Below are positions 4,185 to 36,915 of a stretch of DNA of 64,000 nt, piece by piece (the first letter of the stretch is position 1; every line of letters begins with the position of its first letter). This DNA comes from a bacterium ADurb.Bin236. GTDB taxonomy: Bacteria > UBP15 > UBA6099. The notes below the pieces were generated by a model. It did no database searches and was not told where the DNA came from. It was given only the letters and a program-made list of their open reading frames with translations. A program made the translations under genes and the position numbers. The stretch spans positions 1 to 64,000 of the forward strand of contig MWCD01000008.1 in the NCBI GenBank assembly GCA_002069885.1, given 5' to 3'.

Positions 4185-4328
4185 TTGAACCCAGATTGCG
4201 ACTTCTGACAAGGCGCTTGTGCGCCTTTAAGAAAAAAACCGGCGCTGTTCTTCGCTGCAGAACGCCCCCAAGCTGCGTCAGCTTGGGGGCGCCACCCGGG
4301 AAGGTTTTTTCAGAGGTCGCAGATTCAA
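4185..4328. repeat. Multibranched inverted-repeat element (144 nt)
   Basis: An outer imperfect stem joins TTGAA (4185-4189), TGCGACTTCTGA (4197-4208) and AAAAAAACC (4232-4240) to GGTTTTTT (4303-4310), TCAGAGGTCGCA (4310-4321) and TTCAA (4324-4328). Inside are three hairpins: AAGGCGC/GCGCCTT (4210-4227), GTTCT/AGAAC (4247-4263) and a perfect 12-bp stem GCCCCCAAGCTG/CAGCTTGGGGGC with a 3-base loop (4264-4290). No T-run follows the strongest hairpin on either strand, so a simple terminator is unlikely. It lies between tRNA-Arg and the 3' end of the efflux operon and could be a structured RNA or a small palindromic mobile element. Confidence 0.6.
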
Positions 4329-16442: not shown

Positions 16443-17573
16443 TTGAATAAACACTTGCGACAACACATAAAAACGTTGGCGGTGGTCGCTGTATTTGCGG
16501 CGCTAATGTCCAGCTTTCAGTTGCGCGGAATCTCGAACGACGCGGCCGGGTTGTTGATGTCCGGCGACGCTATGTGGAACTTTCATCTGCCCGCCCCGCA
16601 GAGAATAGCGGACAGATATTATCTGGGTCTGAGCGCTGGCGAAGAGTTCAATCTTGCGGACATTAAGGCTGAACTGCTGATAGTGGAGATTTTGAGCGTT
16701 TACTGTTCGAGTTGTCAGAGCATGAAGCCGTACATGAACGAGTTTGCAGAAAAAATCGAACGAGACCCTCAGATGCGTGGCAAGGTGAAGATAATCGGAG
16801 TCGGCGCCGGGAACGCGCAGTCGGAGCTTGACATGTACAACAAAGCCGAGCAGGTTCAGTTCCCGCTGTTTCCAGACCCGGAGTTCTATGTTTACGAACT
16901 GGTGAAAGAGCCTAGAACTCCTTTTCTGCTGTTTGTGAAACCTGACGGAGAGGGCGGTTTGGCGGTGGCGGCATCGCATTTGGGAACGTTGAAGGACGCG
17001 GATGCGCTTTACGAGAAGGCTCGCTCGGCTTTCAATTCCGACATCTCGCTGATTGTTGCGGCGGCGGCGAAGAGAAAAGACCCCGACACTGCCTCAAGGG
17101 ATTTGGTTCTGCCGGTGACGGAGGATGATCTTTGGGAGAAAATCAGGCGGTCTATGGCTTCGGCTGGCGGCGTGCCGACAGACATCATGAAACTCGACAT
17201 AGAGGGCGAAGACACTTTATACATGGGATTCGTGAACGACGAAAAGGTCTTCGCAAAACTAGTTTCTCGCAGAATCCCTTGTAACGACTGTCATCATAAC
17301 TTCTTTATAATCGGATTCAATGATAAAGGGGTTTTTCTTGATTTCGTTCCCGTATATATCATAAAGATCGGTTACAAACAGTGGTCTGACACCGAGGTAA
17401 AAACGATAAACCAACGTTTCTTCGGCAAATCGGTGAACGATGCGTTTCCGTTCGACCCTGAGGTTGACGCTATCACTTCAGCGACAGTGAGCACGCGGTT
17501 GGTTTACGACACTTACAACAAGGCGCATCTCGCGTTTGAGAAATTGGTTGAGCGGGGCTATGCGGAGAAATGA
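16443..17573 (+). CDS. Exported thioredoxin-fold / CxxCH / FMN-binding fusion protein
   Basis: A 376-residue protein with an N-terminal membrane or signal segment (residues 10-25). A thioredoxin-like domain carries CSSC at 88-91 (LSVYCSSCQSMKPYMNEF). The C-terminal part is an FMN-binding (NqrC/RnfG-type) domain with DAITSAT at 342-348, matching the ApbE flavinylation motif in which the last Thr bears covalent FMN. Between them is CNDCHH at 280-285, a CxxCH pattern that could bind haem c or a metal. The TTG start at 16443 follows a strong AGGAGG eight bases upstream. An extracytoplasmic electron-transfer role joining thiols and flavin is inferred. The TlpA-like gene follows closely. Confidence 0.75.
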   Translation: MNKHLRQHIKTLAVVAVFAALMSSFQLRGISNDAAGLLMSGDAMWNFHLPAPQRIADRYYLGLSAGEEFNLADIKAELLIVEILSVYCSSCQSMKPYMNEFAEKIERDPQMRGKVKIIGVGAGNAQSELDMYNKAEQVQFPLFPDPEFYVYELVKEPRTPFLLFVKPDGEGGLAVAASHLGTLKDADALYEKARSAFNSDISLIVAAAAKRKDPDTASRDLVLPVTEDDLWEKIRRSMASAGGVPTDIMKLDIEGEDTLYMGFVNDEKVFAKLVSRRIPCNDCHHNFFIIGFNDKGVFLDFVPVYIIKIGYKQWSDTEVKTINQRFFGKSVNDAFPFDPEVDAITSATVSTRLVYDTYNKAHLAFEKLVERGYAEK

Positions 17574-21417: not shown

Positions 21418-21797
21418 GCCACTCCGCCGCGGTTCGGAACCGCCTCCGCCGGGGACCGTTTCCCCCGACCCGGCCTATTATATAACAACAACCGTTTAAA
21501 ATAAAAACCTCCGCCGTGCCGGTGGGACAGATCTTTGAACCTGTATAAAACAGGTGGGTGTTCCCGCATGCGCCCGGAAGTCCTCTCGAAGAGGCATTTC
21601 CTCGCGCTGCTAGTCGGAACTCCCTTTGTTAAAATGTTGGCTCAAGACTCATGGCCCTGCCGCGCAAAGCAGAGATCATTTAAATAATAGCACATGCAGA
21701 AACATCCATCAACTTTGCGGGAAGCGCAAAGAAAAAGATTTTCACCACAAAGACACGGAGAAGACTTATTAATAAAAGAAACGAACCGGCGGGGCTG
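21418..21797. other. Intergenic region between two minus-strand operons
   Basis: It carries a weak candidate promoter for the thioredoxin gene near its left end, a small hairpin CTTTGCG/CGCAAAG at 21713-21731, and, near 21740-21757, CACCACAAAGACACGGAG, a sequence of a kind that recurs between genes in many environmental genomes. No gene is seen. Confidence 0.45.
21477..21505 (-). promoter_or_regulatory. Weak candidate promoter for the thioredoxin-aroQ-peptidase genes
   Basis: A perfect -10 TATAAT (plus-strand 21477-21482) is preceded after 17 bases by TTTATT, a poor -35. Transcription would begin near 21470, about 50 bases before the thioredoxin start. Confidence 0.35.
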
Positions 21798-26232: not shown

Positions 26233-26480
26233 AAGGGAAAACTTTTGAAAAAGTTTTCCCTTAAACCCTTTCAAAACTTTTCATGCCGGCGCCGAAGTCG
26301 GGGCTTCGCCTCCGCCATCGGCGCGGACAGCACGAAAAGGCATTGAGAAAGGATTTTACTGAGAATACTCTTCAAAAACATTTCACAGGAGCGTCGGGAC
26401 AGTGCGCGGCAGCGTCCCGGCCCGACGCTCAAGGAAAAGTTTGAAGGATTTTCAAGGAAACTTTTCAAAGTTTCCTTGAA
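26233..26480 (+). repeat. Palindrome-ended non-coding element, copy A
   Basis: It starts with a perfect 14-bp-stem palindrome (26233-26262, arm AAGGGAAAACTTTT) and ends with another (26451-26480, arm TTCAAGGAAACTTT). Next to each terminal palindrome lies a third, inward partial copy of its arm: ACCCTTTCAAAAC on the left, GTTTGAAGGATT on the right. Between are GCGCC-AAGTCGG-GCTTCGCCTCCGCC and GAGCGTCGGG/CCCGACGCTC blocks. The same element lies inverted at 36659-36915. This copy sits between the DUF6504-type gene and dinB; its right edge is followed by CCGCCGGAGG, which serves as the dinB ribosome site. Confidence 0.75.
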
Positions 26481-26499
26481 CCGCCGGAGGCCCGTTTTC

Positions 26500-36515: not shown

Positions 36516-36658
36516 GCCTTTTCCTTTCCGCGTTCGGTAATTCTATAATATTTCTTTACTCGTGTTCAGTCCCCTCCGGAAACATTTCATCCATTCGCGC
36601 CGTGGAGATAATAGAAAAGATGAAAAATGAAATAAGGGAAAAGAAAAACGAAAAAACC

Positions 36659-36915
36659 ACAGAGAAACTTTTGAAAAGTTTCTCTGTTAATCTCTTCAAA
36701 ACATTTCAATGATCGTCGAGAGCGAATCGCTGAAGCGCTTCCATCCCGACGCTCCATGTAAAATCATTTATAAACAGACTCCACTGAAAACCATTTCCCG
36801 ACATCTTCTCTCGCGATGCGCACCGAAGGCGGAGGCGAAGCTCCGACTTGGGCGCTGGCATGAAAGATTTTGAAAGGGATTTTAAGGGAAAACTTTTTCA
36901 AAAGTTTTCCCTTAA
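36659..36915 (-). repeat. Palindrome-ended non-coding element, copy B (inverted relative to copy A)
   Basis: Terminal palindromes lie at 36659-36687 (arm ACAGAGAAACTTTT) and 36882-36915 (arm TTAAGGGAAAACTTTT, 16-bp stem). Each is followed inward by a third partial copy: AATCTCTTCAAAAC on the left and GATTTTGAAAGGGATT on the right. Read on the minus strand, its first 45 or so interior bases match copy A with about five differences, and GGAGCGTCGGGA is shared. In each end the third copy carries the same base changes as its hairpin arm. It lies between the pseudophosphatase and tRNA-Leu. Confidence 0.75.

Follow-up and report, generated by a model that had tools for sequence, protein, structure and literature searches.

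Intergenic repeats dispersed through the genome of the UBP15 bacterium ADurb.Bin236 end in hairpins whose homopyrimidine 3' arm is, in most types, repeated backwards, as a mirror, in a third segment that lies across a turn of 3-6 nt. The preferred reading, to which a probability of roughly 0.55 may be attached, is that these repeats form a family of triplex motifs which would act as a block to transcripts or as a 3'-end former, the triplex folding and the transcript-end role being the interpretive steps. The anatomy of the elements, the mirror rule, the copy number, the distribution, the gene context and the replacement of modules in place were established directly.

The window, which is the whole 64,000-nucleotide stretch of DNA that was analysed, contains two non-coding elements (element 1, 26233-26480, and element 2, 36659-36915) that are mutually inverted and 77% identical. 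Each element is bounded by two AT-rich hairpins, the arms of which pair perfectly over 14-16 bp, and on the inner side of each hairpin lies a related third segment (Table 1). This arrangement had been described in the original prediction, and the hairpins were recovered by a scan for perfect arms of at least 10 bp, which gave only one further hairpin in the window (4263-4291, unrelated). The third segments also read as first written: CCCTTTC (26266-26272), TCCTTC (26443-26448, minus strand), TCTCTTC (36691-36697) and CCCTTTC (36872-36879, minus strand). RNA folding of both elements is far stronger than that of shuffled sequences (z of -7.5 and -6.5). Elsewhere in the window, a 6S RNA gene lies at 21504-21678 on the minus strand (Rfam match of 87.9 bits).

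Table 1. Parts of the two elements in the window
Feature	Position	Strand	Remarks
Element 1, G-type end, perfect hairpin AAGGGAAAACTTTT-GA-AAAAGTTTTCCCTT	26233..26262	+	purine 5' arm, pyrimidine 3' arm
Element 1, G-type third segment AAA CCCTTTC AAAACTTTTC	26263..26282	+	CCCTTT is the mirror of TTTCCC in the 3' arm
Element 1, inner GC-rich stem-loop, G module	26284..26332 (limits approximate)	+	from fold; 79% column identity
Element 1, inner GC-rich stem-loop, A module	26380..26430 (limits approximate)	-	from fold
Element 1, A-type third segment, minus strand AATCCTTCAAACTTTTCCTTG	26431..26450	-	TCCTT is the mirror of TTCCT in the arm
Element 1, A-type end hairpin TTCAAGGAAACTTTGAAAAGTTTCCTTGAA (minus strand)	26451..26480	-	
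CCGCCGGAGGC motif beside element 1 A-type end	26481..26491	+	
Element 2, C-type end hairpin ACAGAGAAACTTTTGAAAAGTTTCTCTGT	36659..36687	+	outward T-rich tract at 36620-36658 (minus-strand reading)
Element 2, C-type third segment TAATCTCTTCAAAACATTTCA	36688..36708	+	TCTCTT is the mirror of TTCTCT in the arm
Element 2, G-type third segment, minus strand AATCCCTTTCAAAATCTTTC	36863..36881	-	
Element 2, G-type end hairpin TTAAGGGAAAACTTTTGAAAAAGTTTTCCCTTAA (minus strand)	36882..36915	-	

The element had been taken to be present twice, and a search of the whole genome and of relatives had been proposed. That search gives 54 distinct elements between genes in the host genome (3.87 Mb in 169 contigs), a count based on 109 matches by BLAST and 71 exact matches to units, and it finds elements in all three of the congeners searched. 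By its LptF, the host (genus UBA6099, phylum UBP15) groups with bacterium UBP15_UBA6099 and close relatives, at an identity of 98-99%. Units of a related kind are present in a sister genus, a genus of the same order, two other phyla and several IMG/VR contigs. A search of plasmids returned no related element, the matches from several pattern scans of viral sequences were mostly due to chance, and none of the papers found in a literature search describes this element.

The host elements are built from three end types: G (TTAAGGGAAAACTTTTGAAAAAGTTTTCCCTTAA, AA, TCCCTTTCAAAACNTTTC), C (CCAAAGAGAAACTTTTGAAAAAGTTTCTCTTTGG, AA, TCTCTTCAAAACGTTTC) and A (TTCAAGGAAACTTTGAAAAGTTTCCTTGAA, AA, TCCTTCAAACTTTTCCTTG). 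The usual layout sets a G end opposite an A or a C end, both pointing inward, although composite elements (for example G, A, C) also occur and about 20 are lone units or have a decayed mate. Every unit encloses a GC-rich stem-loop of variable sequence. Conservation over the copies is 92-98% in the hairpin and third segment (the column identity of the G-type hairpin is 98% over 42 copies) and 79% in the interior, and it falls to about 37%, the level of chance, just outside the G hairpin. The A and C ends are flanked on the outside by CCGCCGGAGGC, which in many C ends is replaced by a T-rich tract; the same motif is likewise present beside the related units of other genera and phyla, and a literature search on repeats flanked by it returned nothing relevant.

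The elements are clustered regionally in the host genome, the composition of which is mostly uniform across contigs. The large contigs C1, C4, C5, C7, C10, C11 and C15 (~740 kb) carry none, while C3 carries eight, C6 seven and C12 six. Contamination was considered as the cause of this unevenness and rejected, because most of the element-free contigs have the shared tetranucleotide signature. Contig C14 (L255), which has a GC content of 41% and a foreign tetranucleotide signature, is probably a contaminant in the bin.

The relation between arm and third segment is the central observation. A mirror of the 3' arm is equivalent to a parallel complement of the 5' arm, and the four ends in the window cannot separate it from a direct repeat, because their arms are nearly mirror-symmetric. 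The distinction is decided by asymmetric arms in relatives, and all of those listed here are mirrors: a genome of the same family, with 26 units identified by pattern, has the arm GCGCCCCCTT with the third segment TCCCCCGC and the arm GTTTCTCCTT with TCCTCTTC; a genome of the same order has GTTTTCTCAC with (C)ACTCTTTC; a genome of another phylum has GGTTCCCTCAA with ACTCCCT; and an IMG/VR contig has GTTTCCCCTCTGG with ACTCCCCTTC. Across the 21 unit types a score of 122 is obtained for the mirror, compared to 89.3 when the third segments are reassigned among types (0 of 100,000 reassignments, z of 7.1), while the direct-repeat fit is weaker (102 compared to 83.5 reassigned); the mirror is the better description in 11 types and the worse in one. 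The same 21 types give no signal for a reverse complement or complement relation. The mirror signal persists in less redundant sets (z of 6.6 for 12 types and 4.9 for 8 types). Since the unit types were assembled in this analysis and are not all independent lineages, these z and reassignment values serve as guides and not as exact probabilities.

The rule is valid between types and not copy by copy, as is evident from drift within types and from the exceptional units. The 3' arm of every type retains a pyrimidine run of 6-10 nt. The exceptions to the mirror are G004_u3 and G004_u6, and in the latter (GTTTTCCCCTATG with ACCCCTATC) a direct repeat fits better. Within types the third segment drifts alone, appearing for example as TCTCTTTC, TTTCTTC or CCATTTC beside unchanged arms, and both arms are altered with an unaltered third segment in L014, L024 and three G004 copies; in one copy from the genus, L224, all three segments have changed (GGTTCTCTTTGG with TCTCTCC). 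The coordinated change of three segments that had been predicted is thus highly significant between unit types and does not extend within them. Variation of the third segment independently of the arms, which had been named in advance as an observation that would count against the idea, is found within types and to that extent does count against it.

Because the third strand mirrors the 3' arm, it can lie parallel to the purine arm, and the relation is for this reason better accounted for by a triplex than by two alternative Watson-Crick pairings with the arm. Each end module would be an intrastrand triplex motif made up of a homopurine 5' arm, a homopyrimidine 3' arm, a turn of 3-6 nt and a mirrored pyrimidine third strand. 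The third strand would lie parallel to the purine arm with T.A-T and C+.G-C triplets, which is the class III arrangement and could form in DNA or RNA, and the opposite strand would form a class I purine triplex. Two points stand against the triplex: C+.G-C triplets need protonation, and the G within the third segment TCCCCCGC is a non-standard third-strand base. The conserved CAAAACNTTTC part of the third segment is also left unexplained by it. In two IMG/VR contigs, L167 and L169, a pyrimidine arm comes first and is followed by a purine arm and a purine third segment (CCATATTTCTCTTTTTCAAAAAGAGAAATATGG GAAAGAGAAAAC); these units have the same CCGCCGGAGGC flank and then a GC-rich hairpin, and their order reads as class II.

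Intrastrand triplex motifs are a known bacterial class, represented by BoxC/PIT, TM-ECO and the ITxF database (Holder 2015, PMC4666352), and the triplex classes III, I and II are used here as in that paper (Holder et al. 2015, PMC4666352). The tract organization defined there, three tracts on one strand with an R-Y-Y or R-R-Y code, is found by way of the mirror rule in the 21 types, with the exceptions G004_u3 and G004_u6. An ITxF stem has 6-15 triplets, with at most one mismatch from seven triplets up and none at six (Holder 2015, PMC4666352); the stems here have seven triplets in G, six in C, 7-8 in G004 u1 and u2, eight in L140 and only five in the A type. The turn is mostly 3-6 nt, yet the first loop, which separates the two arms, measures about 12 nt and contains base pairs of its own (CTTTTGAAAAAG), beyond the loops of 1-6 nt (ITxF; Holder 2015, PMC4666352) or 0-10 nt (Hoyne et al.) searched before. 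Because this loop exceeds the published limit, the family is ranked as a variant of the intrastrand triplex repeats and not as a formal member.

The family resembles BoxC/PIT in having purine, pyrimidine and Hoogsteen tracts on one strand in foldback order, in being intergenic and present in many copies, in its inverted pairs, which always join unlike types (here G with either A or C, in E. coli A with B), and in its association with genomic instability. It differs in being class III/I instead of the G/C-rich class II, in the GC-rich stem-loop and the CCGCCGGAGGC flank that its ends add, and in a third strand that varies together with the arm in many sequences unrelated to one another. Bacterial triplex motifs have so far been recognised by composition alone, and published searches miss those whose first loop is itself a hairpin; a family that obeys a mirror rule over many distinct sequences provides comparative evidence that is beyond the reach of composition searches. 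It can be suggested, tentatively, that this is a natural intrastrand triplex kept by selection, in which the third strand tracks the arms by a mirror code across lineages and paired inward triplexes act bidirectionally at gene 3' ends.

The original prediction had proposed two alternative pairings. The mirror relation leads us to prefer a triplex to such a switch at the arm, but a second Watson-Crick partner does exist, namely the third segment of the other end. A different structure may be built on this pairing, a cloverleaf in which the third segments pair across the element alongside the end hairpins and inner stem-loops, as cruciform DNA or structured RNA, and in which the mirror likeness is secondary. 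The near-palindromic CAAAACNTTTC part, by which the two third segments can pair, is present in nearly all unit types, the duplex energy between third segments averages -10.1 kcal/mol compared to -4.7 kcal/mol for shuffled sequences, and the predicted fold of element 2 pairs them. This structure is nevertheless unlikely to be the primary one, given that the pyrimidine part which tracks the arm (TCCCTTT, TCTCTT, TCCTT) is a poor pairing partner for the mate's third segment, and that at G ends the two inner bases of CAAAANNTTTC are variable, with mostly CG at C ends, so that covariation is lacking there. Two other partners fare no better: pairing of the third segment with the element interior does not exceed that of shuffles, and the purine-rich sequence upstream of the hairpin that might serve (GAAAGGG at element 1) is missing at element 2.

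The gene context bears on the role that the triplex motifs may have. Among the 48 elements for which both neighbouring genes were called, these genes converge at 24, run in the same direction at 17 and diverge at 7, while a small baseline of 53 element-free gaps of at least 50 nt, with genes called by a simple codon score, gives 10, 31 and 12; the convergent excess (24/48 compared to 10/53) has a p of 0.0014 for convergent against the rest. Facing stop codons lie at a median of 34 nt from the element start. On the outward side, the C ends face either a T-rich tract or CCGCCGGAGGC together with a brief run of T, and the C ends that lack CCGCCGGAGGC have 7.7 T among the first 15 nt outward; the T-rich tract is weaker at G ends. 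The likeliest role would be that of a structural block or 3'-end former for the transcripts of converging genes. Since both ends point inward, a transcript from either neighbouring gene would first meet a hairpin and then its third strand, which is the order compatible with a class III triplex in RNA. In the passages of Holder 2015 (PMC4666352) that quote earlier work, E. coli PIT motifs are described as having neither promoter nor terminator activity and as giving no footprint in vivo. Because of this precedent, and because random insertion into short convergent gaps is expected to produce a similar bias, the bidirectional transcript-end or roadblock role suggested by gene context and inward orientation is rated at about one in three.

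The convergent bias, the distance to the stop codons, the outward T-rich tracts and the pyrimidine-rich third segment would equally be expected if the elements were plain bidirectional intrinsic terminators, in which the third segment provides the U tract for incoming transcripts and resembles a mirror through its pyrimidine composition. Like these terminators, the elements place hairpins between convergent genes, with T-rich tracts at many of the C ends, but their hairpins are perfect and AT-rich, there are two of them per element, and a mirror third strand and inner GC-rich stem-loops are added. Composition is an improbable source of the mirror, because the third segments of other types are equally rich in pyrimidine and yet fit the arm much worse, and because shuffling the letters inside each third segment never approaches the observed mirror score. 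By a strict scan, classical terminators are rare both at gene ends with elements (2 of 59) and at other gene ends (4 of 61).

The recombinase-recognised end that had been offered as one explanation was examined through the history of the elements in congeners, which are 92-97% identical around them. No empty site, a check that had also been proposed, was found: an element or a remnant is present at all eight site-genome pairs at which the congeners yielded both flanks. Target duplication is not seen (mean of 1.5 compared to 1.16 for shuffled sequences), and the host genome, a MAG that is 93% complete, has no match to the Y1 transposase (PF01797) in a search that was positive in 5 of 14 controls. 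The ends are instead exchanged or lost as whole modules, in place. At the site of element 1, congener G001 has the same G half with a C-type right end where the host has the A type, and in both genomes the right end is followed by CCGCCGGAGGC and the same flank; in G002 a contig starts within a C-type hairpin joined to that flank. Element E3 (contig C6) is of A type in one congener and of C type in others. Exchange of a whole module changes the arm and the third segment together in one step, and changes of type do not proceed by stepwise compensation.

A non-autonomous mobile element of the MITE or REP/BIME type, with hairpin ends recognised by a transposase or recombinase, would account for the dispersal of about 54 copies, the inverted ends and the sharp boundary at the G end. 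In addition to the negative results above, no partner with the same ends was found: the candidate autonomous transposon, on contig C65, is a C>...<G pair of 1.5 kb with nothing but a hypothetical ORF inside, and the sole transposase found inside an element, an IS630-like gene in G003 (L293:14100-15200), was rejected as the element's own because it is inserted into the loop of that element's GC-rich stem-loop. A mobile origin of this kind is accordingly doubtful. The elements share with REP/BIME and their RAYTs the short palindromes, inverted intergenic pairs, mosaic modules and 3'-end bias, and they differ in the absence of a Y1 transposase from the genome, the mirror third segment and a modular element of 250-400 bp. 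The BOX elements of streptococci are similar in their modular A/B/C make-up and variable module numbers; their sequence and layout are different, and we know of no triplex relation for them. The triplex-motif family would rather be an old and vertically inherited set of dispersed intergenic repeats with two different inward end modules, G against A and/or C.

A switching RNA (riboswitch or attenuator), which had also been proposed and in which arm and third segment are alternative partners, would suit the three related segments per end and the stable folds, but it is very improbable, because the direct repeat that it requires, with the third segment rivalling the 3' arm for an antiparallel pairing with the 5' arm by strand displacement, is worse than the mirror and suits symmetric arms only, competitors of 5-7 nt would face perfect hairpins of 14-16 bp, the Rfam 15 covariance models give no match at the elements, and these lie at gene 3' ends and not in leaders.

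Breaks in synteny between congeners fall at elements in some cases and elsewhere in others, and the elements host insertions of other repeats; such rearrangement and insertion would be a by-product in the triplex-motif reading. A separate 121-bp repeat with the ends TATACATG...CTTCGTATA is present at L260:4367-4487 and 16524-16645 (host contig C6), is about 98% identical to its congener copies and sits in or beside the triplex elements; G002 and G003 lack it at the second of these sites, which suggests a MITE of recent activity with TA as its target. At L063:2414-2569, within the congener copy of window element 2, there is an insertion of about 140 bp (CCTGAGTATCTC...GGCAATCAGG) with AAATCATT on both sides, which is another MITE candidate. 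A third dispersed repeat, of about 208 bp (L262:5734-5941), has many copies in all of the congeners and is unrelated to the triplex elements.
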